This document shows positions 9,741 to 32,832 of a DNA stretch of 33,252 nucleotides, in pieces. The notes under the pieces are model-generated. The model had not been told where the DNA came from. It saw only the letters and a program-made list of their open reading frames with translations, and ran no database searches. The position numbers were made by a program, and so were the translations under genes. Origin of the DNA: Microtetraspora glauca (GTDB lineage: Bacteria; Actinomycetota; Actinomycetes; Streptomycetales; Streptomycetaceae); NCBI GenBank assembly GCA_000721275.1, contig JOFO01000078.1, positions 1 to 33,252 of the forward strand, given 5' to 3'. Position 1 is the first letter of the stretch, and each line of letters starts with the position of its first letter.

Positions 9741-9747
9741 CAGCAAC

Positions 9748-11788: not shown

Positions 11789-12030
11789 CCAGCGTGGAAC
11801 GTGTGTGGCTCAAACATCCGGCGACCGGCGGGTTCTTTCGCTGCCCCGAGCGGGCGGCGGAGGACTGGGAGAAGGCCGGATGGGTGCGGTCGGATCCGCC
11901 GCCGGCTCCGGTGTCGCCGGTGGTGGCGGAGCGGATCGAGTGGGAGAACCAGCGGCGTCAGTCCGCTGAGCAGCAGAAGCCGAAGACCCGGCGGTCAGCC
12001 GCCACGGACAAGGGAGAGAGTGATGGCTGA
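11785..12030 (+). CDS. Small tail-module protein
   Basis: 81 residues from GTG 11785 (GTGA overlap). GTG 11794 is a later alternative. The start (VERVWLKHPATGGFFRCPERAAEDWEK followed by GW) has the look of short actinophage proteins that sit before the tail tube gene. The rest is a Pro-rich linker and a basic, Gln-rich tail. Function unknown. It overlaps the tail tube gene by eight bases. Confidence 0.65.
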   Translation: MTSVERVWLKHPATGGFFRCPERAAEDWEKAGWVRSDPPPAPVSPVVAERIEWENQRRQSAEQQKPKTRRSAATDKGESDG

Positions 12031-13107: not shown

Positions 13108-13451
13108 AGGCGGCGGAGCGGCTGGGCATCTCGCCGCGCCGGTTCGACGGTTGGGAGCCGACCACCATCTACGAGTACGACGACGCTGGCCGGCTGGTTC
13201 GGTCGATGCCGGAACCGGAGTGGTCGGAGCAGGACCAGGCGTGGATGCTCGCGCTGGCCGAGTACCGGGCTGGTCTGTGTCCGTCGTGCCGGCGGCCGCT
13301 GCGGGAGTGCGCGGCGCCGGAGGCGGATGGCCGGTACGTGGTACCAGATCCGACCCGCTGCCACGCGACGACGGCGCTGCTGATCGCCCAAGAGGGTTAC
13401 CGAGATGTACGTCAGTCGGGGGCCCTGCTCTGGCATGCCGAACGGAGGTGA
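13062..13451 (+). CDS. Tail assembly chaperone, T-type extension made by -1 frameshift
   Basis: 129 residues, read after the slip at 13056-13062, so the full G-T product would be 12502-13062 joined to 13062-13451, 316 residues. The extension starts LARRLADSPGLRARVEAAER and continues with LGISPRRFDGWEP, the usual opening of actinophage T domains. It then has a CPSCRRPLREC cysteine group that may bind zinc. The T domain contacts the tail tube subunits and recruits them to the tape measure. The fusion is inferred from frame and motif; no separate ribosome site is evident. Confidence 0.85.
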   Translation, partial: LARRLADSPGLRARVEAAERLGISPRRFDGWEPTTIYEYDDAGRLVRSMPEPEWSEQDQAWMLALAEYRAGLCPSCRRPLRECAAPEADGRYVVPDPTRCHATTALLIAQEGYRDVRQSGALLWHAERR

Positions 13452-13454
13452 GTG

Positions 13455-15375
13455 GTGGCACTTCGCACCGTCGGGGTTCGCTTGCAGGCGGACGTCCGCG
13501 AGTACAGCGCCAGCATCACCAAGGCCGGCAAGGACACGAAGACTCTCGGCGACAAGCTGACCGAGGCGGCCAAGTCCGGCGACAAGACCGCTGCGGCGAC
13601 CGCCGATGCTGCCCGTACGGTGGCCCAGCTCGCCGAGCAGATGAAGGCCAGCGGCCGCGCTGGGGTGACTGGCTTCAAGCTGTCCGAGGACGCTGCACGC
13701 CGGCTCGACGATCAGATCGAAGAGACCGCCCGCAGCATCCAGGCGCTGGAGGCCGAGTTCGCGAAGACCGGCGACTTCAAGCTGGTGTCGTCGCTGAACC
13801 GGCAGATGGGCCTGCTCAAGCGCCAGCTCAAGGCTAGGGACCTCTTCAACCCGGCCGAGGCGACCAAGGCCGGTACGGAGATGGCCGGGCAGGTCGCGGT
13901 CTCGTTCGGTGCCAAGCTGGGGCCGCTGATTGCCCGGGCGCCGATGGCAGGCATGAACCCGGCCGTGGCGGCGATCGCCGGGCCGCTCGCCCTTGGTGCC
14001 GCGACCCTGGTCGGTGGGGCGATCGCGGGCGCGGTCGTCGGCGGCGCCGGTATCGGCGGGGTGGCCGGCGGGCTGGTGCTGGCGGCCCGGGACGGCCGGG
14101 TACGCGACGCCGCAGCCGGGGTGGGTGACGAACGCGATCAGCGACGGGTTGGCTCAGATCGGTCGCGCGGTCGGGGACGTGTTCATGGACCTTTCCGACA
14201 ACGCCACGAGCGGCGCGGACGCGCTCCGGTATCTGTTCGCGATCATCGAGGGTGGCATCCGGGTTGTCGGCGCCGTGGTCAACGGGCTCGCCGAGCTGTG
14301 GCAGTGGAGCGCCATGTTCTCCTCCGCGACCTCCGGTGACTGGGGTCGCCTGACGTCGCTGGTCGCCGGTGAGATGGACGTCGGGAACGCCGCCGAGGAT
14401 GCCGCCGGTGACCTGCAGAATCTCGGTACCGAGGCGTTGACGCTGGAGGAGCGGCTCGCCGAGTTGAAGACTGCGTTCGACGAGCTGTTCGGCGCGCAGA
14501 TGTCGATCGACGAAGCCACGATCCGCTATCGGCAAGGCATCCGCGACCTCAACGAGGAACTGACCAAGGGCGCCCGGACCCTGTCTCTGAACAGCGAAGA
14601 GGGCCTCAAGAACCGCAGCGCGGTGCTCGAGCAGATCCAGTCGATCGCCGACCTGCGGGCGGCCCGGATCGAGCACGGCATGGCGCTCGACGAGGCCGAC
14701 GCCAAGTACGGCCGGGACATCGAGGGTTTGCGTAGGCAGATGATCCAGGCCGGGTTTACAAAGGCCGAGGTTGACCGGTTGATCGGCGCCTACCGGGACA
14801 TCCCGAAGCGGGTCGACACGAAGGTTGCCGTCGACACGACATCGGCGATGCAGCGGGCGAAAGCCCTGCGTGAGTACTTAAAGAAGATCCCCGATGAGGT
14901 CGTCAACATTGCGATGCGGGTCACCGGGCAGCGCAACGCGTCCGCTGCCGCTGCGGCGATCCGGAAGCAGTACGCAAACCGGTGGGGCAACGTTTACCAC
15001 GCCGAGGATGGCCTGCTCAGGCAGGCGAACGCGTGGGGCCCGGGGGACACCATGTACGCCTGGCGGGAGCCGGCCACCGGTGGCGAGGCGTTCGTGCCCA
15101 AGAACGGCGACGCCGGGCGGTCGCTGGGGATCCTTGACACTGCTGCCGGCTGGTACGGCCACGCGGTGGTGCCGAGGCAGCAGGCGCAGCCGATGGTGGC
15201 GATGGCCGGCGGCGGGGGCACGTTGTTGGCTGACATCACGATCCGCTGGCCGGACGGGAGTGTGGCGGGCCGGCTGGTCGCGTCCGGGCTGCGCGCTGAT
15301 CCCCGCGGCACGCTGGGTGCGCTGCAGGTGGCGGTGGAGACGACTCCCGGCGCTGCGCCGGCTCTGAGGCGGTGA
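13455..15375 (+). pseudogene. Tape measure protein gene, disrupted by a frame change
   Basis: GTG 13455 follows GGAGG (13444-13448) by six bases. The first frame gives a normal tape measure N-terminus: coiled coil, FNPAEATKAGTEMAGQ, a Gly/Ala hydrophobic segment and then LVLAARDGRVRDAAAGV near 14110. Tape-measure-like sequence then continues only in the +1 frame from about 14115 (WVTNAISDGLAQIGRAVGD) to 15375, through helical repeats and a C-terminal Gly-rich end. The first frame runs on as nonsense to 14339. Family members usually have roughly 80 more residues between these two motifs, so an out-of-frame internal deletion is likely. A sequencing error is the main alternative. If real, tails would be absent or defective. 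Confidence 0.72.
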
Positions 15376-18300
15376 GTGGTGGCGGTCGAGTTCCGGTCGG
15401 ATGCGGAGGTTATCAACGGGACTGCCGGCACCAGCGTGGTCGTGGCCCGGCCGGCAGGCATGGAGGCCGGCGACGTACTGGTCGCGGTGATCGCCGCGGT
15501 TGGTACGCCGTCGGTGTCGACGCCGGATGGGTGGACGCTGCTCGGTGTTCAGGACGCGGCCACGTCGGTCCGGGCGGTCGCCTACTACCGGGTGGCGGAC
15601 GGGTCGGAGCCTGCGTCGTGGACGTGGACGCTCGGCGCCTCCCAACGTTCCTTCGGGTGGGTCGGCGCGTACACCGGGGTTGACCTGCTCGCCCCGGTCG
15701 AGTTCAGCGCGGGTGCCGCCGACACGACTGCCGGTACGAGCTGGACGACCGCGTCAGCGTCGGTGTCTCGCCAGTCGGTCCGGGTGGTGACCGCGGTGGC
15801 CGCCGTCCGTACGGCGTCGGGTGTCGCAACCACGTGGACGGGGTTCGACACCGAGCGGGCCGACAGCAGCACCAATGCCGGCAGTGGTACGGACCTGGCC
15901 GCGTGCGTGCAGGACTATGAGGGCGTTGCGTCTTCGCAGGCCAACGTGTTCACGTCGTCGCAGTCGTGCACGGCAGGCGCCCTGTGGGCGGTCACGCTAC
16001 GGCCGGCGTTCACCGAGTACGACGGCGGCACGCTCCGGCCGATCGTGGAGATGGCGTTCGGCGCCGACCCGGACGGTGACCCAGCCGACTGGACGTGGAC
16101 GGATGTCACCGACCGGGTGACGAAAGCCGGGGTGACGATCGGCAAGGGATTGAGCCCGGACTCCCGGCAGGCGGTCGCGCCGCCGACCTCCGTCCGGTTC
16201 GCGCTGCTCAACACTGCTGCCGGCGACTTCACCCCGGACAACCCGAACGGCCGCTACTTCCCGCACGTCGTCGAGGACGTGCCGGTCCGGGTGTCCGTGC
16301 CGTACGGGTACGCATCGCCGACGCAGCGGGCCCTGGCCTGGATCGAGTCGTGGACTCCCGCCTGGGACGACACCACCGGTGAGGGCGCTGTGGTGCAGGT
16401 GCAGGCGTACGGGCGGCTGCAGGCGTTGCAGGCTGCTGACGCGCCGCTGATGAGTGTGCTCAAGCGGACCCTGCTCAACCCGACCACGAGCGTCACCCCG
16501 CATGCGTACTGGACGTGCGAGGACGACGCCGGCTCGACGTCGGCGGCGTCTGCTCTGCCGTACCAGCGTCCGCTGGTCGCGGTCGGCGATGTCACCTTCG
16601 GTTCGGCCAGCGACTGCCCGTCGTCGGCGCCGCTGCCGACCCTGTCCGACGGGCAGTCGCTGCACGGGCCGGTGATGGCTGCGGCCCCCGGGCGTTGGTC
16701 GATGGTCGCGGTGATACGGCTGCCGGACACCCCTGTGGCGTCTACGTCGCTGCTGCTGCGTGGCACGGGTACCGGGTCGGCGCACCGCTGGTGGATCGAG
16801 CTGGTACCGGGTACGCCGCACCAGTTCCACATCAGGGCTGCGGACGCCGACGGGGTGTCGCTGCTCGATGAGTGGGTCGACATCACCGACAACCGGATCT
16901 ACGGCCGGTGGGTGGCGATCAGCATGGTCTGCACCCAGAACGGGGCGAACGTCGACTACGCCGCCCAGTACTACCTCGCCGACCTCAAGGTCGGCAGCGG
17001 CAAGATCGGCACCCTGTCGTCGCGGACCTGCGGGGCTCTGACCTCGGTGTGGACGTCTGCCACGTCGAGCACGAGCGGGATGGCGGTCGGCCACATCGCG
17101 GTGTACACCAACCCGGCGCCGTTCGATGTGACGACCTGGCTGCACGCGGTTCTGCCTGGTCACGCGGGTGAGGTGCCGTACCTCCGGTTCTCCCGGTTGG
17201 GCGGCGAGGCTGGTATCGACACCCAGGTGTACGGGACCAGCACGGTCGGGCCGACGATGGGCCCACAGCCGGTGTCGACGCTGGCGCAGGCGTTGGAAGA
17301 AGCGGCTGTCACCGACCAGGGCCTCATCCACGACGGCGGCCCGGATGGCGGCTTGGTGATGGTGACCCGGGCCAGTCGGTACAACGCCGTGACGGCTGCC
17401 ACGTTCGACGTCGGCCGGCAGGAGTTGGCGCCACCGCTGGGCCCGAAGTTCGAATCGCGGACCAGAGTGGGGGATTCGACGGCGTCCCGGTCGGGCGGGT
17501 CGTCGCGGCGGGTCGTGGATCCTGATGTGCGGTCCGGCCGGTCGGATCGGGTCACCCTGTCGCTGGCCGATGACGCGTATCTGGATCAGGTGGCGTCGTG
17601 GCGGATGGCGGTACTCAACGCCCCCGGTATGCGATACCCGGGCATCAGCCTCAACCTGCGGAAGCGCCCTGGCCTGGTGCGGGCGTGGCTGGATATGCGG
17701 ATCGGCCAGCGGATGCAGGTGTCGGGCCTGTGGCCGGCGCACGGGCAGCGGACCATCGACCAGCACGCCGACGGGTACATCGAGACGATCACCGCCGACC
17801 GGTGGGATGTGACGCTGCACTGCTACCCGGCGAGCCCGTACACGGTCGCGGTCCGGGACGACGCCACCCTGGCCCGCCGGGACACCGCCGGGTCGGAGCT
17901 GTCAGCCGCGGTCACCTCCACCGCGACCAGCCTGCCGGTGCTGACGACGCTCGGCCCGCGCTGGTCGGAGGACCCGGCCGAGTACGTGACGCCGATGGCG
18001 CTGCGGGTCGGCGGCGAGCGGGTGGATGTGTCGGCGGTCGGTCCGCTGGTCACGGCCACCTTCGCCACCGTCGCGGCGACCGGGTGGGCGGCGGCCAACA
18101 CGGGTCAAACGTGGTCGCCCGCGTACGGCACCGCCACCGATTACAGCCAGCCGGACGGCACGGGGTGGATCACGCTGTCGGCGGTCGACACGCTGCGCGG
18201 CCAGGTGCTCGACGCCGGCAGCCCGTACGTGACGTACACGGTGGATCTGTCGCTGTCGGTCGGGTCGCCGACGGGTGGTGCGGTGACGCTGTGGGTGTGC

Positions 18301-18762
18301 ACCGGCTGGGTCGACACCAACAACCACAACATCGCGAGGCTGTCGGTGTCGACCGCCGGGGTGATGTCGCTGGCGCTGCTGCGCCGTAACGGCGGCACCC
18401 TGACCACGGTGGTCGGCAGCGTCAACGGGGCCAGCAACGCCGCGAGCAACTGGTGGCGCGTCGAGATCGCCGCCGAGAAGTCCGGTCGGGTCGTGGCGTC
18501 GATGCGGAACGTCTCGACCGGCTCGCCGGTTACCACCGTCGACTCCGGTGTGACGTCTGGGTGGGCGACTGGGACTGGGATCGCGATCCTGGCCCGCCGG
18601 GAGACCGGCAACTCGAACTCGCCGGTGACGGTCAAGGTCGACGCGTTGTCGGCGGTGAATCCGCAGGTCATGACCGTTACGCGAGGTGTTGCCGGGATCG
18701 TCAAGGACCATTCGGCCGGTACGGATGTCCGGCTGTGGACGCCCGCCCGCCGGGCGATGTGA
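15376..18762 (+). CDS. Large tail-tip / minor tail protein with lectin-like domains
   Basis: 1,128 residues. Two adjacent GTG codons (15376, 15379) can start it, and GAGG at 15366-15369 serves either. Residues 1-205 look like a beta-sandwich (AGDVLVAVIAAVGTPSV). The stretch near 215 (VEMAFGADPDGDPADW, then VTDRV) is the common hub-domain motif of actinophage minor tail proteins. Residues about 370-600 have a laminin-G/concanavalin-like pattern (GRWSMVAVIRLPDTP, FHIRAADADG). A second jelly-roll-like region lies at about 890-1110 (WWRVEIAAEKSGRVVASM). It probably combines tail hub and receptor- or sugar-binding functions in one chain. It is the longest intact gene in the window. Confidence 0.82.
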   Translation: MVAVEFRSDAEVINGTAGTSVVVARPAGMEAGDVLVAVIAAVGTPSVSTPDGWTLLGVQDAATSVRAVAYYRVADGSEPASWTWTLGASQRSFGWVGAYTGVDLLAPVEFSAGAADTTAGTSWTTASASVSRQSVRVVTAVAAVRTASGVATTWTGFDTERADSSTNAGSGTDLAACVQDYEGVASSQANVFTSSQSCTAGALWAVTLRPAFTEYDGGTLRPIVEMAFGADPDGDPADWTWTDVTDRVTKAGVTIGKGLSPDSRQAVAPPTSVRFALLNTAAGDFTPDNPNGRYFPHVVEDVPVRVSVPYGYASPTQRALAWIESWTPAWDDTTGEGAVVQVQAYGRLQALQAADAPLMSVLKRTLLNPTTSVTPHAYWTCEDDAGSTSAASALPYQRPLVAVGDVTFGSASDCPSSAPLPTLSDGQSLHGPVMAAAPGRWSMVAVIRLPDTPVASTSLLLRGTGTGSAHRWWIELVPGTPHQFHIRAADADGVSLLDEWVDITDNRIYGRWVAISMVCTQNGANVDYAAQYYLADLKVGSGKIGTLSSRTCGALTSVWTSATSSTSGMAVGHIAVYTNPAPFDVTTWLHAVLPGHAGEVPYLRFSRLGGEAGIDTQVYGTSTVGPTMGPQPVSTLAQALEEAAVTDQGLIHDGGPDGGLVMVTRASRYNAVTAATFDVGRQELAPPLGPKFESRTRVGDSTASRSGGSSRRVVDPDVRSGRSDRVTLSLADDAYLDQVASWRMAVLNAPGMRYPGISLNLRKRPGLVRAWLDMRIGQRMQVSGLWPAHGQRTIDQHADGYIETITADRWDVTLHCYPASPYTVAVRDDATLARRDTAGSELSAAVTSTATSLPVLTTLGPRWSEDPAEYVTPMALRVGGERVDVSAVGPLVTATFATVAATGWAAANTGQTWSPAYGTATDYSQPDGTGWITLSAVDTLRGQVLDAGSPYVTYTVDLSLSVGSPTGGAVTLWVCTGWVDTNNHNIARLSVSTAGVMSLALLRRNGGTLTTVVGSVNGASNAASNWWRVEIAAEKSGRVVASMRNVSTGSPVTTVDSGVTSGWATGTGIAILARRETGNSNSPVTVKVDALSAVNPQVMTVTRGVAGIVKDHSAGTDVRLWTPARRAM

Positions 18763-18771
18763 GGAGGAACC

Positions 18772-19227
18772 GTGCCTGACCTGTTGGCCGGCAGCATCAT
18801 TCGGGGGATGGACACCCCGCCGACGGAGTGGGACATCCAGGACGTGGCGGTGGGCGCCATCACCAGCGGCACCTACGCGGCCAGCACGGGCGGGTCGGCA
18901 GTGTGTGCAACGACGTTCGTTGCCGGCACCACCGGCCGAATACTGATCAAGCTGTCGGCGGAGTGCGACAACAACGCGTCGTCGGTGACCCTGTGCAGTT
19001 TCCGGCTGGGCGAGGGCGCGGTGGTTGGTGCCGGGACCGAGGTCATCGGCGCCACCGACAACATCGCGGTCAGCAATCTCGGCACCAACCAGGTCCGGGC
19101 CAGCATCGAACATCCACAGGGCGGGTTGACGCCGGGGCTCACCTACAACCTGCAGACGATGCATCGGGTGACTGGCGGGACCGGCATCGTCACCCGCCGG
19201 GTGCTGATCGTCACCCCGGCGACCTGA
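18772..19227 (+). CDS. Small tail / baseplate beta protein
   Basis: 151 residues, GTG 18772 with GAGGAGG a few bases upstream. All-beta pattern, Gly/Thr-rich, with TTGRILIKLSAECDNNASSV and a C-terminal GIVTRRVLIVTPAT. It resembles short fibre- or tip-associated proteins encoded after the main tail-tip gene in actinophages. No enzymatic motif. The role is inferred from position. Confidence 0.68.
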   Translation: MPDLLAGSIIRGMDTPPTEWDIQDVAVGAITSGTYAASTGGSAVCATTFVAGTTGRILIKLSAECDNNASSVTLCSFRLGEGAVVGAGTEVIGATDNIAVSNLGTNQVRASIEHPQGGLTPGLTYNLQTMHRVTGGTGIVTRRVLIVTPAT

Positions 19228-19237
19228 GGAGGTCTCG

Positions 19238-19378
19238 ATGCGTGACCTGACCAGCGACCACGACGACGACCCGGAGGCGTGCGCGGGCGAGCCGGTCGAC
19301 TACGACTGGGCCGACGACCCGGACGCGGAGGAGGTGCCCGATGGCGGTTCTGACCCCCGCCCTGGTCAAGCTGCGTGA
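19238..19378 (+). CDS. Short acidic protein
   Basis: 46 residues, ATG 19238 after GAGGAGG (19226-19232). Very rich in Asp and Glu (TSDHDDDPEAC, YDWADDPDAEE) with a Pro/Gly tail. The 3' part overlaps the endolysin start at 19341 by 38 bases in another frame. The good ribosome site and filling of the gap between two genes support it. Function unknown. Confidence 0.6.
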   Translation: MRDLTSDHDDDPEACAGEPVDYDWADDPDAEEVPDGGSDPRPGQAA

Positions 19379-20228
19379 CGGCTTCAACCGGATCGCGCCC
19401 GGCCGGGACAAGGCCAGCGACGGGTGGATCGGCAACAAGGCTCACGCTGCCAGCACCTCCGGTCACAACCCGGACGAGTCCGGGCGGGCCGAACGGCAGG
19501 ACGCCGACCGGATCGACGAGGTTCGCGCGCTCGACGTCGACAAGGACCTGCGGGTGTCCGGCCTGACGATGCAGTGGTGCGTGCAGAAGACGCTCGACAC
19601 CCCGGCGGACCGGCGGCGTCTGATCTACATCATCTGGAACGGCACCATCTGGTCGGCCTCGAACGGCTGGAAGCCCCGGACGTACACCGGGTCGAACAAG
19701 CACACCCTCCACGCCCACTACAGCGGGCATCCGGACTACGACAACGACACCGCCCCCTGGGGCATCGAGGAGCTGATCGAGATGGATAAGGCCGAGGTCA
19801 AGGCCGCGTTGGTGGAGGCGCTTCGTGAGGCCGACGTCAAAGGCGCGGTGATCGAGGCGCTCCGAGAGCGGCAGGCGTACCTCTCCGACGCGGTCCGGCG
19901 GTACGCACACGAGGATCCGCGCGGGCCGCGGTGGACGACGCCGACGAGCGACCGGAGCCTGGCCGAGTACGCCTGGCAGCAGGCGCACCTCGTGCACAAC
20001 GCCGACGTGCCGGCGTTGCGGGCGGATCTGACCCGGGTGGAGGCGTTGCTGGTGGAGGTATCGGGGCGGGATCCGGTCGACGAGCAGGCCGTCATCGACG
20101 GCGTCCTCGCTGGGCTCGGCACCCGGGATCTCGATGACGCCACCGCCGCGCTGGTGGCCGCGTTCGGGGACCGCGCGGCCGAGTTGGCGGCGAAGCTCGC
20201 CGAGGCGACCGCCACACAGCAGGGCTGA
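19341..20228 (+). CDS. Endolysin, M15-type peptidase
   Basis: 295 residues, ATG 19341 preceded by GGAGGAGG. The N-terminal half fits a LAS/M15 metallopeptidase: STSGHNPDES supplies a zinc histidine (about 42), EVRALDVDKD an aspartate (about 65), and HTLHAHYSGHPDY the last histidines (about 124-126). These enzymes cut peptide cross-links in peptidoglycan. From about 145 onward it is helical with heptad character (EVKAALVEALREADVKGAV) and may bind cell wall or multimerise. There is no signal peptide, so release needs the nearby membrane proteins. The position after tail genes is standard for lysis. Confidence 0.82.
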   Translation: MAVLTPALVKLRDGFNRIAPGRDKASDGWIGNKAHAASTSGHNPDESGRAERQDADRIDEVRALDVDKDLRVSGLTMQWCVQKTLDTPADRRRLIYIIWNGTIWSASNGWKPRTYTGSNKHTLHAHYSGHPDYDNDTAPWGIEELIEMDKAEVKAALVEALREADVKGAVIEALRERQAYLSDAVRRYAHEDPRGPRWTTPTSDRSLAEYAWQQAHLVHNADVPALRADLTRVEALLVEVSGRDPVDEQAVIDGVLAGLGTRDLDDATAALVAAFGDRAAELAAKLAEATATQQG

Positions 20229-20234
20229 CCGTGC

Positions 20235-20525
20235 GTGCCCGAAACCCAGCACCAGCGGCAGCTACCACCGATTATCAGGGACGTCGTCCTGATGTGCCTC
20301 GGAGCGGGTGGGATCGCATACCAGCAGGTCACCGGGCAGGTGTCGGAGGTGCTCCTCGCCATCTACGTGGCTCTGCTGGGCGGCCCGGCGATCGGCGGGG
20401 TGTGGTCGCTGCGACAGCAGCACGGCGACGGTACGACTGGTGGGCCGTCTCCGTCTCCGGGACCGCCGCCGTCGCCGGTCTCGCATACCTCCTCGGCCAG
20501 TGCGCCGGGCGGTGGTGACCCGTGA
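20235..20525 (+). CDS. Small membrane protein, lysis cassette (holin-like)
   Basis: 96 residues from GTG 20235, six bases after the endolysin stop. Two hydrophobic segments (DVVLMCLGAGGIAY and VLLAIYVALLGGPAIGGVW) form a hairpin-like pair, followed by a Pro/Ser-rich tail. Short two-helix membrane proteins next to an endolysin often act as holins. The alternative is an accessory membrane protein, with the later gene at 21248 as the true holin. It is GTGA-coupled to the next gene. Confidence 0.65.
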   Translation: MPETQHQRQLPPIIRDVVLMCLGAGGIAYQQVTGQVSEVLLAIYVALLGGPAIGGVWSLRQQHGDGTTGGPSPSPGPPPSPVSHTSSASAPGGGDP

Positions 20526-20767
20526 GTCCGCTACGCCGGCCGGCGGTCCCGGTCTGGTATGCGCTGGTGGCGATCCTGGTGTCGATGCTGGCGATGGCCG
20601 GCGCGGCGGTGCTGATCGCTGATCGGGCGGCTCGGGAGTCGGAGCAGCGGTGGTGTGGCCTGATCACGACGATGGACCGGGCGTACCGAGAGGAGCCGCC
20701 GGCCACTGACCTGGGACGCCAACTGGCCCGGGACATCGCCGAGCTACGCCGGGAGTTTCGGTGCTGA
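20522..20767 (+). CDS. Single-pass membrane protein, lysis cassette
   Basis: 81 residues from GTG 20522. One membrane segment (VWYALVAILVSMLAMAGAAVLIA) near the N-terminus, then a periplasm-side helical tail with two cysteines (RWCGLITTMD and the last residue). This is a recurring actinophage lysis-module protein, sometimes likened to a spanin, but its function has not been fixed. It overlaps the reversed zinc-ribbon gene by 24 bases at the 3' ends. Confidence 0.68.
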   Translation: MSPLRRPAVPVWYALVAILVSMLAMAGAAVLIADRAARESEQRWCGLITTMDRAYREEPPATDLGRQLARDIAELRREFRC

Positions 20768-20965
20768 GCACCCATGTTCGGGGTCGATCACGACGGTGGC
20801 GCAGTCGGAGCACAACCACTGGCGGCCCATCCACCCGCAGCCGGGGCAGGCACCCCATCTCGGCATCCACCGGCCACCACACGGGCACGGGCTCGGCGAC
20901 TCTTCGACCCATTCCCGTCCGCCGTCTCGCGTCTCCCGGTAGTAGCCCCTGACCACGCACGTCAC
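20744..20965 (-). CDS. Zinc-ribbon protein on the opposite strand
   Basis: 73 residues. On the reverse strand a GTG at 20965 is preceded by GGAG at four-base spacing. The product opens with TCVVRGYYRETRDGGREWVEE and then has CPCGG, CPGCG, CSDC and a last Cys after HG, giving zinc-ribbon pairs. Such an ordered set of CxxC motifs is unlikely in a shadow frame. It fills a 247-base gap in rightward coding (20768-21014) and is the only reversed gene within the late block. Function unknown. Small zinc ribbons often bind nucleic acids or proteins. Confidence 0.6.
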   Translation of the reverse strand: MTCVVRGYYRETRDGGREWVEESPSPCPCGGRWMPRWGACPGCGWMGRQWLCSDCATVVIDPEHGCSAPKLPA

Positions 20966-21014
20966 CGTACTCCGGCCCAGCCTGGGTCGGCCTGAGCCCC
21001 TGAGGAGGGCCACC

Positions 21015-21251
21015 TTGCAGAACCTCGAAGGCCGGCACCCCGGCACCGTCGGGATCGCCCGCTACTTCGCGTACGAGCACCTGAAGACGCCGCTGCGCGG
21101 AGTCAGCAAGCAGTGCCACGACCTGGCCGAGCAGATGATCGGCACACTGCCCGACGGTCCGGAACTGACCGCCGGTCTCCGCAAGCTGCTTGAGGCGAAG
21201 GACTGCTTCGTCCGGGCCGCGCTCGACACCGCCCAGGAGGGACCAAGATGA
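21015..21251 (+). CDS. Small helical-hairpin protein, Acb2/Tad1-like candidate
   Basis: 78 residues from TTG 21015 with GGAGGG five bases upstream; no other start fits. After an N-terminal GRHPGTVGIARYFAY stretch it forms two helices, LRGVSKQCHDLAEQMIGTL and ELTAGLRKLLEAKDCFVRAAL, joined by a PDGP turn. An F-x-Y before the first helix, LA in that helix, a P-[DS]-x-x-E turn and a second helix with LxEAxxxxxxA are also how I recall the Acb2/Tad1 hairpin family, which binds cyclic nucleotides and blocks CBASS and Thoeris. That link is inference from pattern. The gene is ATGA-coupled to the holin-like gene, and the family is common in actinophage lysis regions as an unnamed protein. Confidence 0.7.
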   Translation: MQNLEGRHPGTVGIARYFAYEHLKTPLRGVSKQCHDLAEQMIGTLPDGPELTAGLRKLLEAKDCFVRAALDTAQEGPR

Positions 21252-21499
21252 CCAACCACTCCACCACCCCGGCGCCGACCGTTGAGAGCAAGGTGAAGGC
21301 CGCGAGCATCGCCTCCTACCTGGGTCTGCTCGCGCTGCTCGCCATCCTCAACGGCGTATCGGACACCAACCTGGTCGCCGGGCTGCCGGACGTCGTCGAG
21401 GTGCTCGTCGCCCCGATCATCCCGGCGGCGGTCGCCCTGGTCGCCGGCTACGTGGCCCGGCACACGCCGCGTCCGGATCTGCCGCCGGCACAGCGGTAG
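21248..21499 (+). CDS. Holin-like membrane protein
   Basis: 83 residues, ATG 21248 in an ATGA overlap. Two hydrophobic segments (ASIASYLGLLALLAILNGV and VLVAPIIPAAVALVAGYVA) separated by a short loop, with a charged start and a basic, Pro-rich tail, is the usual holin layout. It ends the rightward late operon and is followed by a terminator hairpin. Confidence 0.72.
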   Translation: MTNHSTTPAPTVESKVKAASIASYLGLLALLAILNGVSDTNLVAGLPDVVEVLVAPIIPAAVALVAGYVARHTPRPDLPPAQR

Positions 21500-21521
21500 C
21501 TCCGCACGTTCAACGCAGAGC

Positions 21522-23732: not shown

Positions 23733-24334
23733 CGGGCAGCACCTCCCCGCTTCACCCCGTACGAGGACACGATCTCTCGCCACCACGCATCCACCGACGT
23801 CCGTACGGCGGCCTCGGCCAGCCGGCGCCCCGCGTCGGTCTTCACCGCGGCGACCATCGTGTCGATCCACGGCTGGGTCAGCGAATGGCCCTGTGCCTGA
23901 TACTCGCGGGCCTGCAGCAGGCACTCGATCTTGTCGGCGTCCTTGGCACACCGCGCCTCAGGCGTCTCCTTCGCCTCGAACTCGGCGATCAGGTCCCTGA
24001 TCGGACCGGCGATGTCGGCGGGCAGCCCGGCGGTCTGTATCTCGATGACCTCCTGGGCGGGGGTGCACTGGACGAAGGGCTTGCCGGTGCTGGGGATGTC
24101 GCCGAGTCGGGCTTCGGGTAGGTCGTGGAAGAGGGCGAGCGTGGCGGCCTTGTGCGGGTCGGCGCCCTCCATCAGTGCGAGGACGTACGCGACGACGCCG
24201 ACGCGGTAGGAATGCTCGGCCACGGACTCGGGGTCTCGAATGCCGGCGATCCACCATCCGGCGCGGCGGGTGCGCTTGAGGTGGCCCGCCTCGACCAGGA
24301 AGGCCGCCGTGGCGTCGTCGTGCTGCTCGGTCAT
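23729..24334 (-). CDS. HD-domain phosphohydrolase (YfbR/HDDC2-like)
   Basis: 201 residues, ATG at 24334 overlapping the upstream XRE gene as ATGA. The HD metal-binding signature is complete: SVAEHSYR with the first histidine (41), LFHDLPEA with the HD pair (70-71) and CAKDADKIE with the last aspartate (about 132-134). The order and spacing match the YfbR/HDDC2 group, which removes phosphate from deoxynucleoside monophosphates. Similar HD proteins lie beside XRE regulators in many actinomycete elements, where the substrate has not been shown. It is coupled on both sides, so all three products are probably made together. Confidence 0.85.
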   Translation of the reverse strand: MTEQHDDATAAFLVEAGHLKRTRRAGWWIAGIRDPESVAEHSYRVGVVAYVLALMEGADPHKAATLALFHDLPEARLGDIPSTGKPFVQCTPAQEVIEIQTAGLPADIAGPIRDLIAEFEAKETPEARCAKDADKIECLLQAREYQAQGHSLTQPWIDTMVAAVKTDAGRRLAEAAVRTSVDAWWREIVSSYGVKRGGAAR

Positions 24335-25428
24335 GGTCTACCTCTCAGGTTGGCGGCGTAGTGCAGTTGATTCAGCTCGCGGCGTGCCTGCTCACTGAGC
24401 TGTTCCGGAGCTTCGTCGAGCAGGCGGGTGACGCGGTGATGCAGGTCGCGGGTGAGTGCGTCGTCTTCGTGAAGGAGCCAGGGGCGACGGGTGACCAGGG
24501 CCCACACGCTGTGCACCGTCAGTTCGAGGTACGGCGTGGCCCGGGTCAGCCCGGCGACCAGGTGTCGCAGCAGGATGCCGCCCCGCCACGGTCCGAGGTC
24601 GCCGCTGGCCATGAAGTCGTCGCTGATGGCGGGCCGGGTTTCCTCGCCGCACCAGTACGACCAGTAGTTCAGGTTGGCCGCCTCCTGCCCGTCGGTGGCG
24701 AGCTGGGCGCGGATGAACTGGCGAAGCTGCTCCGGGTCGCCCTGACAGGCGCGGGCGACCGCCAGGGACCGCGCGGCAACCCAGGTGGGTGTCCATCCGT
24801 CGGCCGGGCGAAGTCGACGCAGTTCGAGACGTTCCTGCCGGGCGAGCCAGTCCCGCCCGTTCGCCGACGAGTCCCAGGTGGCGACGTAGTACACCTGTCG
24901 CCGAAGGAGCGTTGACGACGGGTCGCCGCCGGCCTGCTCTGCGGTAATCCGCAGGGCGTCGAACAGCCGGTCACGGTCGGGGGTGGCAAGCCGGGGATGC
25001 CCAGCGGCCCCCGGCAGGGAGCGCGGTGGGGTGCCCTGAACTGCCCATCCGAGCAGGTCGTGCCACTCACGGGTGTGAACCCAGGTTGCTAGTGGGTGGT
25101 CGTGCGGCCCGTGCTCACCGCTGAGGATCTGACCCACCACCAGGTCGACGTCGATGGCTGCGCCGAGCTGGTCGAGCAAGCCCGGGTCGGCGCCGAGGCG
25201 GTGCAGCGTGCGGGTCATGGCGCGCAGGGTGTGGACGCGGACGCGGGCCAAGGGGCGACGGCCAGTTTCCCAGCTCTTAAGCGTGTTGATGTCGACGCCC
25301 AGGGCATGTGCCGCCGCCTCCTGGCTGAGCCCAATCTGGGTCCGGATGACGCGCAGGACGGCGCCCGAGATGGCTCCCTCGGGATCAGGTGTACCGGCGG
25401 TACGCCTGTCGACGGGGATTCGCGCCAC
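24331..25428 (-). CDS. XRE-family transcriptional regulator
   Basis: 365 residues from GTG 25428, with GGGAGG seven bases upstream. An HTH at about 21-60 (AVLRVIRTQIGLSQEAAAHA, then LGVDINTLKSWETGRRPL) is a clear XRE/Cro-type domain. The remaining 300 residues are helical and Trp/Leu-rich (WVHTREWHDLLGWAV, YYVATWDSS, YWSYWCGEE), the usual long C-terminal part of actinomycete element regulators, probably for sensing or dimerisation. It is first in a leftward operon with the HD and GIY-YIG genes. It probably regulates its own operon and perhaps the element. Confidence 0.83.
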   Translation of the reverse strand: MARIPVDRRTAGTPDPEGAISGAVLRVIRTQIGLSQEAAAHALGVDINTLKSWETGRRPLARVRVHTLRAMTRTLHRLGADPGLLDQLGAAIDVDLVVGQILSGEHGPHDHPLATWVHTREWHDLLGWAVQGTPPRSLPGAAGHPRLATPDRDRLFDALRITAEQAGGDPSSTLLRRQVYYVATWDSSANGRDWLARQERLELRRLRPADGWTPTWVAARSLAVARACQGDPEQLRQFIRAQLATDGQEAANLNYWSYWCGEETRPAISDDFMASGDLGPWRGGILLRHLVAGLTRATPYLELTVHSVWALVTRRPWLLHEDDALTRDLHHRVTRLLDEAPEQLSEQARRELNQLHYAANLRGRP

Positions 25429-27538: not shown

Positions 27539-27822
27539 ACCTCCACCTGCGTCCGGTCCTCGACGACCTGCGTCACGCCCGCCAGGTCATGGCCGGCTAC
27601 CAGCACCTCACCCGACTCACCCGCTCCTACGTGACCGCCGACCCGGCCGTCGTGGACCTCGGCCTGCGAGCCGGCTGGATCGCCGACGAGGCAGACCTTC
27701 TGCGGTGGCACCTGGAACGGTCCCGGACCGCCCGGGCGGTACTGCCCCGCGCGGCCGCCGAGCTGCGTGCCGACGCCGCGTACTGGCGGGCCAGCGCCAC
27801 CCGAAAGGAGGCCCGGCCGTGA
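27535..27822 (+). CDS. Small helical protein
   Basis: 95 residues, ATG 27535. All-helical and basic/Leu-rich (RPVLDDLRHARQVMAGYQHL, DEADLLRWHLERSRTARAVL), without a hydrophobic segment. Likely a soluble partner of the neighbouring membrane proteins. AAAGGAGG near its 3' end serves the following gene, whose GTG overlaps this stop. Confidence 0.62.
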   Translation: MNLHLRPVLDDLRHARQVMAGYQHLTRLTRSYVTADPAVVDLGLRAGWIADEADLLRWHLERSRTARAVLPRAAAELRADAAYWRASATRKEARP

Positions 27823-29030
27823 AGACCGACAAGGCCGTCGGCGGCTTCTACTTCATCGTCCTGACCACCGCGCTGGTCGGCTCCGTCAGCGCCGCCGCGC
27901 GGTGGCTCGACGTCTCGTGGGGCTGGGCCATCGCCCCGATCGTCGCCGTCGAACTCGGCGGTGTCGTGCTGATGATGTACGCCGCCGACCGGCAGAAGCT
28001 CGGCGAGCGCGCCGGCATGGCCCGCCTGCTGTCCGGGGCGGTCGCCGGCATGGCGGTGGCGACCAACTACTTCGGTCACCTGAACAAGCCCGGTCAGGCG
28101 TACTTCTTCGCCGGCCTGTCCGCGCTCGGGTACGTCGTCTACCTGCTGATGGCGGGTGCGAAGCGCCGTGACGCGCTGCGGGCCGCTGGGCAGTTGGAGG
28201 GCACCACCCCGGTGTACGGCGTGTGGCAGTGGCTGCGGCACCCGGGGCTGACCCGGCGGGCCCGGCAGTTGGCGCAGGCGAACGCCGCCGACCGGCTGGC
28301 CGATCCGACGGTGCCGATCCTCGGTCGTACCGCGTCGCTCGCGGCCGCCGCCGAGCAGGTGCGCGCCAAGCGTCGTGAGGACGCCATCGCGTCCGCGCTC
28401 GACCGGCTGATCCGAGACGCGGCCGGGCCGGTGATGGCCGACATCGCCGTGCACACCTACGACCCTGATGAGATCGCGCAGCGGCTCGCCGCGTCGGCGG
28501 ACTACGACGGGGATGCGGCGCTGCTGGCCGCCGACCTGACACCCGCGAAACTGGCCGGCGTTGACGCGCCGGATGGCCGGCTGGACGACGACATCATGGC
28601 GGTCGCCGACGTTGTCGCCCCGACCCTGTCCGAGCAGGTAGAAGCCGCCGTCACCCGCCACCTCGCCGCCCTGCCGATGGCGACCCCAACGCCGGCCGGC
28701 AACCGGCCACCGTGGCGGGCGAGTGGCGACCAGGCGCAGGCCCGCGTACGCCGCCCCGCACCGGCCATCAACGTCACCGTGGTGGCGCCCGAGCGGCCGA
28801 CCCGACCGGCCACGACGACCGGCCACGGTGGCGAGTCGAAGCCGCCCCGGAAGGGTGCCAGCCAACCGGCCACGACGGCGGATCGGGTGGCGGGTGCTCT
28901 GCGCCGCAAGCCGGACATGACACAGGAGGACGTGGCCAAGGTGCTCGGCGTGGGAGTACGCACCGTCAGCCGCTACTGGACCACCGCGAAGGCCACCGTC
29001 AACGGACACGACCACGGGAAGGGGCAGTGA
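27819..29030 (+). CDS. SpdB-like membrane protein with C-terminal HTH
   Basis: 403 residues from GTG 27819, with AAAGGAGG upstream. Four membrane segments in the first 115 residues (about 10-28, 36-55, 68-85, 95-113) are followed by a long cytoplasmic part rich in Ala/Arg/Asp helices and a Thr/Pro linker. A helix-turn-helix sits near 370-393 (MTQEDVAKVLGVGVRTVSRY). This membrane-plus-HTH layout is typical of spread proteins of actinomycete conjugative elements. They are thought to help move DNA between mycelial compartments together with the FtsK-type translocase. The exact activity is unknown. Confidence 0.8.
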   Translation: MKTDKAVGGFYFIVLTTALVGSVSAAARWLDVSWGWAIAPIVAVELGGVVLMMYAADRQKLGERAGMARLLSGAVAGMAVATNYFGHLNKPGQAYFFAGLSALGYVVYLLMAGAKRRDALRAAGQLEGTTPVYGVWQWLRHPGLTRRARQLAQANAADRLADPTVPILGRTASLAAAAEQVRAKRREDAIASALDRLIRDAAGPVMADIAVHTYDPDEIAQRLAASADYDGDAALLAADLTPAKLAGVDAPDGRLDDDIMAVADVVAPTLSEQVEAAVTRHLAALPMATPTPAGNRPPWRASGDQAQARVRRPAPAINVTVVAPERPTRPATTTGHGGESKPPRKGASQPATTADRVAGALRRKPDMTQEDVAKVLGVGVRTVSRYWTTAKATVNGHDHGKGQ

Positions 29031-29031: not shown

Positions 29032-29163
29032 ATGAGCCGCCGACAGATCCACCAGACCCGCCGCGACGCCGCCCGCCAGCGCCGCAACGCCGAACACACC
29101 CGACGCCAGCAGCAGGACACCGGCTACTGGACCACCTTCCTGACCACGGAGGACGCGCGATGA
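29032..29163 (+). CDS. Short basic protein between spread and Nudix genes
   Basis: 43 residues, ATG 29032, one base after the preceding stop, ending in an ATGA overlap with the Nudix gene. Very rich in Arg/Gln (RRQIHQTRRDAARQRRNAEH) with a C-terminal TGYWTTFLTTEDA. GGGAAGGGG is upstream. Possibly a nucleic-acid-binding peptide. Family unknown. Confidence 0.58.
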   Translation: MSRRQIHQTRRDAARQRRNAEHTRRQQQDTGYWTTFLTTEDAR

Positions 29164-29834
29164 CCACCACCGAGTACACCCACCCGAGCGTCCTCGCCGG
29201 CATCGCGGCCGGTGCGTCCTGGGCGGACCCGACCATGGACCCCACCAGCATCGACTGGGCCGAACGTCAGGCCGCCGCCGCGATCCCGTTCCGCGTGGTC
29301 GACGGACGACCGGTCAGCCCCGGCGCCCCGACCGGCATCCGGTACGGCCGCAACCAGCTCGGGCACTGGGGCGAGCAGCAGTGCGCCGACGCGCTCGTCA
29401 TCGCCAAGACGCCCGGCGCCCACGGCGGCTGGCCGTGGCTGCTGATGGTCGACCGCGACGACGACCACGGATGGGCCCTGCCCGGCGGGTACGTCGACCT
29501 GGGCGAGGACCCGATCGACGCCGCCGTGCGGGAGCTGCGCGAGGAAACCGGGCTGGTCATCGACCGGACCCAGGACCCGTACGTGGCACTGCCGGCCCGG
29601 GTGGTGCCGGACCCGCGCGCCAGCGACGAGGCGTGGATGGTCACCACCCCGGTCCGGTTCGACCTCGGCACGTTCGACGTGCTGCCCGACGTCGAGGGCC
29701 GCGACGACGCCCGCCGGGCGGTCTGGGTGCCGGCGGTCGACTTCGACTGCGTGGTGCGACACCTGACGGCGGTCTACGGCGGCACAGTGTTCGCCGCCCA
29801 CCGCGACCTGCTCCGCGACGTACTCGACCGCTGA
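29160..29834 (+). CDS. Nudix hydrolase, Pif-like
   Basis: 224 residues, ATG 29160. A complete Nudix box G-x5-E-x7-REUxEExGU lies at 110-132 (GYVDLGEDPIDAAV then RELREETGL), so the metal-binding glutamates are present. The 70 residues before it form an extra N-terminal part, as in Pif of pSAM2, a Nudix protein that blocks transfer into cells already carrying the element and needs its Nudix motif. The position just before the translocase gene matches that of pif-like genes in AICEs. Substrate unknown. The immunity role is inferred by analogy. Confidence 0.85.
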   Translation: MTTTEYTHPSVLAGIAAGASWADPTMDPTSIDWAERQAAAAIPFRVVDGRPVSPGAPTGIRYGRNQLGHWGEQQCADALVIAKTPGAHGGWPWLLMVDRDDDHGWALPGGYVDLGEDPIDAAVRELREETGLVIDRTQDPYVALPARVVPDPRASDEAWMVTTPVRFDLGTFDVLPDVEGRDDARRAVWVPAVDFDCVVRHLTAVYGGTVFAAHRDLLRDVLDR

Positions 29835-30182: not shown

Positions 30183-32252
30183 ATGACCGACCAGGCATAC
30201 CTCGACGACCACGACACCACCGTGCCCGGTCCGCGCCGGCCGGAGTACGACGCCGAGACACACGCCATCGAGGCGACGCAGGTCGGTGGCCCCGTCGACC
30301 CGCCCGACCGCACCACGACATTCGCCGAGGTCGTCGACCGGTCGCGGGAACTCCCGCCGATCGTCCCCGCGTGGATGCGCAACCCCGACCAGCGCCGCCA
30401 CACCGCCCGGCAAGGGCTCCGCCTGCTGCTCTACATCCTCGGCCTGCACCTGTGGAAGTCGCCGAAGTACGCCGCCAAGGTGGCGTTCTGGGCGCCGATC
30501 GGCGTGCTCCGCGGCATCGGCCGGATCATCTGGTGGGCCCGGGCCGAAGAAGGGAACTGGCATCTGCGGCAGCACGCCGCGAACCGCAACGACTCGGAAG
30601 AGTGGCGCAAGCTCGACCACATCCGGGAGCGCCAGTCTGCGTGGCGCTGGTGGGTCGTACTCGCCGGCCTGTTCGTGGTCGCTGTCCTGGTGGCGTGGGT
30701 GATGTCGCCGCTGGCCCCGTGGTGGGCGCGGTGGGTCGGGGCGGCCGTCGCGGTGCCGGTGCTGGCCCGGCTGGGACGGCCGGCGGACAGGCCGATCCTC
30801 GACCGCGTCGAGACCGGGCCGAAGTTCCTCAAGCTCACCGCCGACATGGTCCGCAAGGCGATCGTTGACCTGAGCATCGGCGTCAAGGAGCCGAAGCAGG
30901 TCACGTTCCCGCTGCCGATCCACAGCGACGGCCCCGGCTGGCTGGCCCGGTTCAACCTGCCCGGGGCGGTCACCGCGGCGAAGGTGCTGGAGAAGCGGGA
31001 GGGGATCGCAGCGTCGCTGCGGCTGCCCGTCGACCAGGTGTGGCCGGAGGTCGGCCCGGACCACCCCGGCCAGGTCGACCTGTGGGTCGGCTACCAGCCG
31101 GCCAGCAAGATGGGTCAGCCGACGTGGGCGTTGGCGGCACCGAACGCCCGGACCAGCGTGTTCGATCCGCACCCGTTCAGTACGGACGCCCGTCAGCGGC
31201 CGATCGACATCACCCTGTTCGAGAACAACGTGCTGTGCGGCGGGCAGCCCGGCTCCGGCAAGTCGTACGCGGCCCGGGCGCTGACCACCATCGGCATGCT
31301 GGACCCGACGTGCGAGTTGAAGATCGCGGAGTTCAAGGGCACCGGCGACTTCCTTGACGTGGAGAAGCTGTGCTCGACGTACATCGTCGGTGTGGACGAT
31401 GACGCCTTCGACCAGGGCCGGGCCCTGTTCGCGTGGGTGCTGGCCGAGTGTGAGCGTCGCGGGAAGCGGATCTTCGAGGCGAAGAAGCGCGGCGAAGCAC
31501 CGCAGGGCAAGGTGACTCCCGAGCTGGCGAAGCGGAAGGGATCCGGCCTGCACCCGGTACTCGTCGTGGTCGACGAGGTGCACGAGCTGTTCCTCGCCCG
31601 GCCAGAGACCGCCGACATGGCGGAGCGGGCAATCCGGCGAGGTCGGGCGCTCGGCGTCATCATCGTGCTGTCCACGCAGATCCCCGACTCGACCAGCCTG
31701 CCCCCGAACATCACCCGCTGTGTGTCGATCCGATGGTGCTTGTCCGTCGGTGGCCAGGTCGAGAACGACATGATCCTCGGCACCGGGGCGTACAAGCGGG
31801 GCCTGACGGGCACCGTGTACCGGCCGAAGATCGACGCCGGCTGGGGTGTCATGGTCGGGCTGGAGAAGCCGGGCGCGGTCCGGTCGTACTTCCCGAACCC
31901 TGAAACGGCGGCGGCGATCGTCGCCCGGGCTGCAGGACTCCGCGGCACGGTGGTCAGCAGCGACGACACGGTGAAGGTGGAGGCCCGGAACCTGCTCGCC
32001 GACGTCCGCGCGGTGATCCAGCCGGGCGAGGCCGGCATGCCGTGGGACGTTGTTGCCGAGCGGCTGCGAGAACTCGCCCCCGAGTTCTACGTCGGCTACA
32101 CCGGCGACATGGTCCGAGAGTCCCTGACCCGGTACGACATCAAGTCGCAGGACGTACCGAAGCCGGGGGAGCCTCGCGGCAAGGTCAAGGGCGTCCGGCG
32201 GACGGCGCTCGACGCCGCACAGGACCGGTTGGAGATCGAGTCTGAGTGGTAG
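30183..32252 (+). CDS. traSA: FtsK/TraB-type DNA translocase (TraSA-like)
   Basis: 689 residues, ATG 30183 after GAGGAGAG. It is the conjugative motor of actinomycete elements, moving double-stranded DNA between cells. About 75-120 is a basic, partly hydrophobic segment, and two membrane helices lie at about 154-174 and 182-197. The motor domain has Walker A GGQPGSGKS (353-361) and Walker B VLVVVDE (459-465). STQIPDSTSLPPNI and the following RCVSIRWCL are FtsK-family motor motifs. The last 70-80 residues (about 610-680) fit a winged helix like FtsK gamma, which in TraB reads short DNA repeats. Repeats of that kind begin at its own stop codon. Length is within the TraB/TraSA range. Confidence 0.92.
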   Translation: MTDQAYLDDHDTTVPGPRRPEYDAETHAIEATQVGGPVDPPDRTTTFAEVVDRSRELPPIVPAWMRNPDQRRHTARQGLRLLLYILGLHLWKSPKYAAKVAFWAPIGVLRGIGRIIWWARAEEGNWHLRQHAANRNDSEEWRKLDHIRERQSAWRWWVVLAGLFVVAVLVAWVMSPLAPWWARWVGAAVAVPVLARLGRPADRPILDRVETGPKFLKLTADMVRKAIVDLSIGVKEPKQVTFPLPIHSDGPGWLARFNLPGAVTAAKVLEKREGIAASLRLPVDQVWPEVGPDHPGQVDLWVGYQPASKMGQPTWALAAPNARTSVFDPHPFSTDARQRPIDITLFENNVLCGGQPGSGKSYAARALTTIGMLDPTCELKIAEFKGTGDFLDVEKLCSTYIVGVDDDAFDQGRALFAWVLAECERRGKRIFEAKKRGEAPQGKVTPELAKRKGSGLHPVLVVVDEVHELFLARPETADMAERAIRRGRALGVIIVLSTQIPDSTSLPPNITRCVSIRWCLSVGGQVENDMILGTGAYKRGLTGTVYRPKIDAGWGVMVGLEKPGAVRSYFPNPETAAAIVARAAGLRGTVVSSDDTVKVEARNLLADVRAVIQPGEAGMPWDVVAERLRELAPEFYVGYTGDMVRESLTRYDIKSQDVPKPGEPRGKVKGVRRTALDAAQDRLEIESEW

Positions 32253-32348
32253 CAGACCCGGTAGCGGGTCGGAGCCTGGTAGCGAAAACGCTACCGCCCC
32301 CGCTACCGGGTCTGACCTGCCGAAACACCCCGCTGGTAGCGGGTAGCG
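32248..32348. repeat. Cluster of GGTAGC(G) repeats, candidate clt
   Basis: Seven copies of GGTAGC in 101 bases, six of them GGTAGCG: direct at 32248, 32260, 32278, 32335 and 32342, inverted at 32289-32295 and 32301-32307. The copies at 32278 and 32289 form a hairpin with an AAAA loop. A perfect 13-bp inverted repeat AGACCCGGTAGCG (32254-32266 and 32301-32313) encloses it. The first copy overlaps the translocase stop codon. In pSVH1 the clt read by TraB contains GACCCGGA repeats, and here GACCCGG occurs next to GGTAGCG. Alternatively, iterons of a replication origin. Confidence 0.72.
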
Positions 32349-32392
32349 GCACCCCCTGAAAGCCCCCTCGAACCCCCGTCTGGAGGCACTTC

Positions 32393-32641
32393 GTGAGACC
32401 CCTGATCGCCGCTACCGTCGCCATCGTTCTGGCCGGCGTCTACGCCCTCTCGTGCTGGATCTGGCCCATGCGTGACTGCCTGGTCTGCGACGGCAACGGG
32501 CACCACCGACCGAAGGACGACAAGGGCCGGAAGCGAAAGGTGAGCCGGACCTGCTGGTGGTGCCGCGGTGCCGGCAAGCGGCTCCGGATCGGACGGCGAC
32601 TGTGGAACCGGGTCCGCCGGCAGGCTCACGCCGCGAAGTGA
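32393..32641 (+). CDS. Small membrane protein with DnaJ-type CxxCxGxG pair
   Basis: 82 residues from GTG 32393, six bases after GGAGG. An N-terminal membrane helix (LIAATVAIVLAGVYALSCWI) is followed by CLVCDGNG and CWWCRGAG, two CxxCxGxG units as in the DnaJ zinc finger, and by a basic tail (RIGRRLWNRVRR). Small proteins of this type commonly follow the FtsK-like gene in actinomycete elements. Function unknown. A membrane-bound helper of transfer is possible. Confidence 0.72.
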   Translation: MRPLIAATVAIVLAGVYALSCWIWPMRDCLVCDGNGHHRPKDDKGRKRKVSRTCWWCRGAGKRLRIGRRLWNRVRRQAHAAK

Positions 32642-32657
32642 CCCCCGTTCGGGGGTC
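32640..32657 (+). terminator. Terminator at the end of the transfer operon
   Basis: GACCCCC (32640-32646) pairs with GGGGGTC (32651-32657) around GTTC. The 7-bp stem starts inside the stop codon of the preceding gene. No T tract. Confidence 0.6.
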
Positions 32658-32832
32658 GGCCGGGCGCATGACGTACGACCGGCCGATCTATGACGCGGTC
32701 CGCCGAACATCTGTCCTAAGGTTGACCTACCTTCGGCCAAGAGGATCATTCCTCAATGGACCCCTGATCAGGAGATTCATCTCCGTGTAACCTCCGATCA
32801 CGTAGAACTTTCACGCCAGCCGGGGAGGGCAC
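32658..32832 (+). promoter_or_regulatory. Intergenic region with promoter and palindromes
   Basis: No gene seen. TTGACC (32722-32727), a 16-base gap and GATCAT (32744-32749) form a possible sigma70-type promoter. Downstream are CCTGATCAGG (32763-32772), a perfect palindrome, and GGAGAT-TC-ATCTCC (32771-32784). The AT-richer base content compared with its surroundings fits a regulated promoter for the gene at 32833. Confidence 0.5.

Follow-up and report, generated by a model that had tools for sequence, protein, structure and literature searches.

A repeat array at the end of an actinobacterial FtsK/TraB-type translocase gene as a candidate cis-acting transfer locus

What is a dense cluster of short repeats doing when it begins inside the stop codon of a DNA translocase gene? 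The cluster lies in contig JOFO01000078.1 of Microtetraspora glauca (GCA_000721275.1). We analysed the whole of this contig, 33,252 nucleotides (C78:1-33252 of a 7.47-Mb genome), which is also the entire IMG/VR contig IMGVR_UViG_2772190673_000001, and we call it the window. The gene, at 30183..32252 on the plus strand, encodes an FtsK/TraB-type translocase with an FtsK/SpoIIIE domain (PF01580). We conclude from sequence comparison that the cluster is very probably the cis-acting transfer locus (clt) of a TraB/FtsK-type module for the conjugation of double-stranded DNA, and that the module's own translocase reads it. The argument starts from what can be observed directly: the array, its position, its conservation, the concerted change of its word, and the co-variation of that word with the translocase winged helix.

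The proposed reader is the C-terminal winged helix of the translocase (31992..32249, plus strand), encoded just upstream of the array, which would recognise the word GGTAGC(G), six to seven bases long. With eight such sites, subunits would be brought together as a hexamer on the DNA of the element itself, and by analogy with the plasmids pSVH1 and pWTY27 the hexamer would pump the double-stranded element into a neighbouring cell. Binding, hexamer loading, the need for the array in cis and self-recognition we infer. Word and reader would evolve as a lock-and-key pair, with the result that each element moves mainly itself. The translocase C-terminus is modelled as a winged helix with a mean predicted local distance difference test score (pLDDT) of 82.3 and blocks of 93-96 across most of the domain. 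A structure comparison of the domain has winged-helix proteins among the matches listed, at modest scores; FtsK gamma is not among the matches listed, an absence that carries no weight against it, and the best E in a sequence-profile search of the domain against solved structures was 0.08. The FtsK gamma domain is the winged helix of the FtsK motor and reads a short DNA word, the FtsK orienting polar sequence (KOPS). KOPS are scattered over the chromosome and orient it, whereas in the window the words are gathered into one array, on a mobile element.

The array and its place in the genome

GGTAGC or its complement GCTACC occurs eight times over 169 bp (32248-32416), a count equalled in 0 of 300 shuffles. 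Copy 1 is a bare GGTAGC (32248..32253, plus strand) whose TAG (32250-32252) terminates the translocase reading frame, so the cluster does begin at that stop, as a preliminary description made from the sequence had said. The other seven copies are GGTAGCG. Copies 2 (32260..32266) and 3 (32278..32284) lie on the plus strand, copies 4 (32289..32295) and 5 (32301..32307) on the minus strand, and copies 6 (32335..32341) and 7 (32342..32348) form a direct pair on the plus strand. Copy 8 (32410..32416) is on the minus strand, and its GCTACC makes codons 7-8 (Ala-Thr) of the downstream gene. The offsets from the translocase stop are -2, +10 and +28 (forward), +40 and +52 (reverse), +85 and +92 (forward) and +161 (reverse). 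The layout is therefore an inverted nest (32248-32307), a direct pair (32335-32348) and an outlier (32410-32416). A hairpin, GGTAGCG-AAAA-CGCTACC (32278-32295), is nested within a perfect 16-bp inverted repeat (32253..32314, arms 32253-32268 and 32299-32314). The preliminary description was right to count six GGTAGCG and one GGTAGC in 32248-32348 but missed the eighth copy, and it found the AAAA-loop hairpin but gave the perfect arms as 13 bp, which is too short.

It is the clustering and not the number of words that is exceptional. The window holds seven GGTAGCG on both strands together, all within 32260-32416. Such a total is ordinary (shuffle mean 4.11; at least seven in 13 of 100 shuffles), whereas up to seven GGTAGC fall within 101 bp here and 1000 first-order Markov simulations never gave more than three. 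The expectation that a count in element and host would find an enriched cluster at this place was borne out for the cluster. In the 7.47-Mb genome the inverted pattern GGTAGCGN{0,20}CGCTACC is found only at the array, against four places for the reversed control pattern. The direct pattern GGTAGCGN{0,30}GGTAGCG is found at six places, three of them in the array, against 11 per strand for its reversed control; the other three are isolated pairs. By these two patterns there is no second cluster in the host genome, and we reject the idea of a host-wide repeat on this basis. The inverted pattern alone is not diagnostic, since 20 of 41 genomes (the window's own included) have at least one. Two of those 20, G015 and G023, have true GGTAGC arrays away from any translocase.

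A second block, CTGACCTGC (32312..32320, plus strand), stands between the inverted and direct halves of the array. Its consensus CTGA(C/T)C(A/T)G(C/G), or CTGAYCWGS, occurs on the plus strand in 31 of 85 translocase flanks, 25 of them at +50 to +99, compared with 1 of 85 coding controls (L105, L077, L079 and L071 dropped), and in the flanks it mostly lies between the two array halves. The window has 15 occurrences, the one at 32312-32320 and 14 at other places, against 2.6 in shuffles; the host rate is 829 per 7.47-Mb genome, or about 3.7 per 33 kb. The preliminary description had also pointed to a GACCCGG shared with pSVH1. This is present in the flank of copy 2; among the other GGTAGC arrays displayed, none showed it next to its words, and we judge it a coincidence.

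The next open reading frame, of 82 amino acids (32393..32641, plus strand), follows directly downstream, holds copy 8, and has a sub-cut-off match to the DnaJ Cys-rich domain. Upstream of the translocase lie a NUDIX-domain gene (29160..29834, plus strand) and a gene for a protein with hydrophobic stretches, seen by eye, and a weak C-terminal helix-turn-helix match (27705..29030, plus strand). The latter is placed upstream as DUF2637 genes are in two other loci, L083 and L084. The translocase reading frame itself opens at 29835, and homologues align from the inner ATG at 30183. The closest translocase that we found is from Plantactinospora, at 79% identity, and the translocases of several genomes of the same genus look like that of a Streptomyces plasmid; these resemblances hint at transfer between families.

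Conservation of the array and its match to the winged helix

If the array belongs with the translocase, it should be found beside other translocases of the family. We gathered loci by translocase homology and not by word, from viral contigs, named genomes, further relatives and plasmids. For the first 61 loci the most frequent 6-mer between -12 and +200 of the stop was picked blindly and compared with 300 dinucleotide shuffles; a later 28 loci lie outside this test. The 61 include the window (L034) and pSVH1, and some are near relatives (L017/L018, L023/L025, L038/L042). The commonest 6-mer is over-represented in 48 of the 61 translocase 3' flanks (its count is reached in no more than 3 of 300 shuffles), and at least four copies of it are present in 54 flanks compared with 23 of 61 coding controls. 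The preliminary description had proposed comparing the flanks of homologous translocases, and the array is indeed conserved beside them, in at least three actinobacterial families. Arrays of the form GGTNNC occur in Micromonospora, Nocardioides, Asanoa, Catellatospora, Virgisporangium, Allorhizocola and Streptosporangium, with a different order of parts in Streptosporangium L029 and two viral contigs. The earlier suggestion that the motif is specific to this element does not hold, since 15 other loci are of the GGTAGC class with 6-8 copies each. As a positive control, the blind procedure applied to pSVH1 returned CCCGGA eight times (0/300 shuffles) at +20..+172 of the traB stop, and CCCGGA is the core of the pSVH1 TraB word GACCCGGA as quoted in the preliminary description.

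Each element has its own word, which may be GGTAGC, GGTCGC, GGTAAC, TGTCGC or one of the CTAG types, and nearly all slots of an array change together. Counted per locus as GGTAGC/GGTCGC/GGTAAC/TGTCGC, the words are nearly exclusive: 8/0/0/0 in the window, 0/8/0/0 in Micromonospora L012, 0/0/8/0 in Catellatospora L022 and 0/0/0/8 in L035. The most mixed loci are L018 (8/3/0/0) and L020 (6/2/1/0). Two others have the appearance of intermediates on the way to a concerted change of word: L019 with seven GGTAAC and one GGTAGC, and L041 with six GGTCGC plus, at the stop codon, a single GGTAGC. More distant relatives use GCTAGC/GCTAACG, CTAGACC/CTAGGTC, or CCTAAC, CCTCAC and AGGGAG. On a translocase tree of 42 rows the word classes are scattered, requiring 13 changes where the minimum is 6. 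L077 (which coincides with L072) and L105 (whose reading frame lacks a proper end) were dropped from the per-locus counts, wing tests and pair identities. L031, which has a GGTCGC array and one GGTAGC and whose reading frame was mis-assigned from the blind 6-mer test onward, stands in the tree and alignment without its C-terminus, is out of the residue-column and pair comparisons, and is a zero row in the per-locus counts.

The word agrees with the winged helix at the level of residues. Residue 773, an Asp in the window (codon 32151-32153) on the first strand of the modelled wing, is D, N or Q in all 26 loci with G at motif position 5 and G, T or V in all 6 GGTAAC loci. It is the sole fully occupied column of 633 that separates the GGTAAC loci from the rest. 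The wing also matters. Of 87 loci, 18 have a Trp-containing wing, and every one of these has at least four (A/G)(C/T)CTAG words; such words occur with no Trp wing in 2 loci, and neither feature is present in 67. The wing test initially combined two hexamer counts that overlapped (9/0/5/11, p = 0.001); the (A/G)(C/T)CTAG count alone over the 87 loci has taken its place. In our opinion both rules, that of the residue and that of the wing, favour the translocase as the reader, the agreement having been examined for the translocase only. The preliminary description had proposed that the adjacent TraB/FtsK winged helix reads the array, and both the conservation of the array and this co-variation support it. 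A separate observation is that a small Trp-bearing insertion in the wing is common to the TGTCGC-class translocases (L035, L037 and L039) and missing from the GGTCGC class.

The copy in the downstream reading frame can change as well. Among the 64 classed loci a word near the downstream start codon was recognised in 30: 25 at exactly 18 nt (codons 7-8), 3 at 21 and 2 at 15. The script found no copy there in the other 34, its pattern for the CTAG classes being loose. The word alters the protein, giving Ala-Thr (GCTACC, GCGACC), Val-Thr (GTTACC), or Ala-Ile or Ala-Ser (GCTATC, GCTAGC). In the window and 29 other loci, two early codons of the downstream gene seem to be dictated by the word that overlaps them, according to the motif class.

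One pair of elements looks like a natural exchange. Between the Streptomyces locus L084 and the element of genome G005 (L067/L124), identity is 97% in the motor and 56% in the winged helix. The centres of their words are TCGA and GACC/GGTC, differing in most copies, and the DNA between the words aligns. The downstream-gene copy is GCTAGC in both. Pairs were compared among 64 of 89 loci, leaving out L040 and the loci with a word or score outside six classes. Where motors are at least 90% identical, winged-helix identity averages 83% within a class (n = 17) and is 57% in the one pair of different class. The drop to 57% is not just the usual faster drift of this domain, because close pairs of the same class average 83%. 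At 80-90% motor identity the means are 71% (same class, n = 36) and 63% (different class, n = 20), and at 60-70% they are hardly apart (43 and 41%). The class difference is gone at that distance, and the pair signal therefore rests on close pairs.

Other possible readers

Several observations weigh against the translocase as the reader of the array and should be considered together. Thirteen of the 61 flanks, including that of plasmid pPaSha2 and several IMG/VR loci, lack a significant array. Two of the six GGTAAC loci (L009 and L011) have three copies only, and neither reaches significance by itself. No single residue was found to match motif position 4 (A versus C). The co-variation rules were framed after part of the data had been seen, and the Fisher value of the co-variation analysis ignores ancestry. 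In the exchange pair the regulators differ too (XRE 56%, GntR 43% identity), the prim-pol, YfjI and xis genes of L084 have no match in the fetched stretch of G005, and the integrases are just 27% identical over 165 residues. Because all of these differ as well, the pair alone cannot name the reader. Finally, two other genomes have GGTAGC arrays of 12-13 copies (L123:1926-2122 and L121:2249-2437) between a DUF3631 (RepAM-type) gene and xis/int-like genes; DUF3631 was assigned by Pfam in one of the two genomes, and xis and int were named by eye. Since these arrays adjoin DUF3631 genes, away from the TraB-like gene, the word alone cannot identify the reader.

The DUF3631 arrays are also an argument that the window's array is an iteron array or replication origin bound by the element's Rep, and the iterons of pWTY27 are likewise repeated words (PMC3583192). 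However, in both of those genomes the TraB-like gene has a distinct array on its 3' side, CTTGTC/GACAAG, and its protein is of another kind, with Pfam matches below the cut-off. In the family studied here the array is fixed at the translocase stop and the word tracks the translocase winged helix. Neither int nor rep was found among the window proteins scanned, with some reading frames outside the scan and the contig stopping at 33252, about 840 bp past the array. An actinomycete integrative and conjugative element (AICE) has int, rep and an FtsK-type tra together; the tra gene of the window has NUDIX, XRE and HD genes as neighbours, the same as in L084. We consider an origin very unlikely. The array might instead be the operator of a regulator that controls the transfer genes, either the XRE regulator (24331-25428) or the helix-turn-helix protein at 27705-29030. 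Both are encoded nearby, and in the exchange pair XRE and GntR change together with the word. Against an operator, the array lies 3' of the translocase and has one copy within the next reading frame, and the sole sigma-70-like site found in 32000-32800 (32722-32749) is about 300 bp beyond it. The single-residue and wing-level agreement is with the translocase winged helix, the regulators being outside that comparison, and we think an operator very unlikely.

The inverted repeat could also act at the RNA level, between the translocase gene and its downstream neighbour, as a terminator, an attenuator or a hairpin that stabilises mRNA. The strand does fold better than shuffles (z = -4.25), and complementarity beside the hexamers is 50% against a background of 28%, partly through the seventh base of the word. 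But 32000-32800 has no terminator-like site (a G+C-rich hairpin with a T run) and no Rfam match, copies 6 and 7 share the word although they are a direct pair outside the nested hairpin, and pairing in RNA does not predict agreement with a winged helix. With the direct pair and the co-variation left unexplained, we set an RNA element aside as highly improbable.

Known transfer loci and the phage context

Reading by the translocase has precedents among plasmids, which we compare here through the available parts of two papers (PMC3583192, PMC4170104). The clt of pWTY27 has the same geometry: like the window's array it starts within the 3' end of an FtsK-type tra gene, taking in 16 bp of traA and 159 bp 3' of it, or 175 bp, with short direct and inverted repeats (PMC3583192). 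It was footprinted by TraA, which protects two separate regions, and deletion of the 159 bp reduced transfer about 1000-fold (PMC3583192). Its words, TGACACC and CCCGCCC, are not GGTAGC, and the two loci were compared by description and not aligned; a repeat in the downstream reading frame is a feature of the window that is not mentioned for pWTY27 in that part of the paper (PMC3583192). The TraB recognition sequence (TRS) array of pSVH1 is also a set of repeats 3' of traB with a different word (PMC3583192, PMC4170104). The pSVH1 TraB is distant from the window translocase, at 29% identity over 40% of the query. The clt loci of pIJ101 and pJV1, as far as they are described there, are again cis-acting, with direct and imperfect inverted repeats and an FtsK-like Tra, but the pIJ101 locus is near korB and not at the tra stop, and the words and sizes of both differ (PMC3583192).

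The existence of clt and TRS arrays as such is already known. What is new here is an eight-slot array that straddles two genes, a word that changes with its reader, the spread over several actinobacterial families, and the place beside phage genes. Our literature search found no paper on these arrays, though most subscription papers were outside its reach.

The left part of the window encodes phage proteins. Genes for a terminase, a portal, a head maturation protease and a major head protein, together with tape-measure-like genes, lie among the phage genes at 3277-21500. Phage genes also stand near the translocase and a significant array in four of six further loci scanned from the viral collection. 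In L036, portal, terminase and integrase genes occupy one side and tail genes the other; tail and endolysin genes are present in L041 and L042, and L037 shows an integrase together with a weak match to a tape-measure protein. For L039 and L005, of which few proteins were scanned, no structural gene turned up. Plasmid pPaSha2 (L083) joins phage head genes with DUF2637 and translocase genes, and its flank has no significant array. The frequency of phage association is biased because these loci come from a collection of viral contigs. It is conceivable, though we hold it as a rather doubtful proposal, that one lineage of temperate actinophages is equipped with a whole TraB-type unit of translocase and matched array, that its prophages could spread as double-stranded DNA from hypha to hypha besides travelling in virions, that address and reader are exchanged as a lock-and-key module, and that a transfer code could be read from sequence.

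We believe these arrays matter beyond a single contig. Simply taking the most frequent word within some 200 bp downstream of the translocase stop yields candidate addresses for dozens of elements in one go. The residue-level agreement makes a recognition code testable, including whether elements resident in the same cell share pumps. If such a transfer code is true, the motif centre would follow from the wing type and motif position 5 from residue 773. A transfer unit beside phage genes would link phages with mycelial conjugation.
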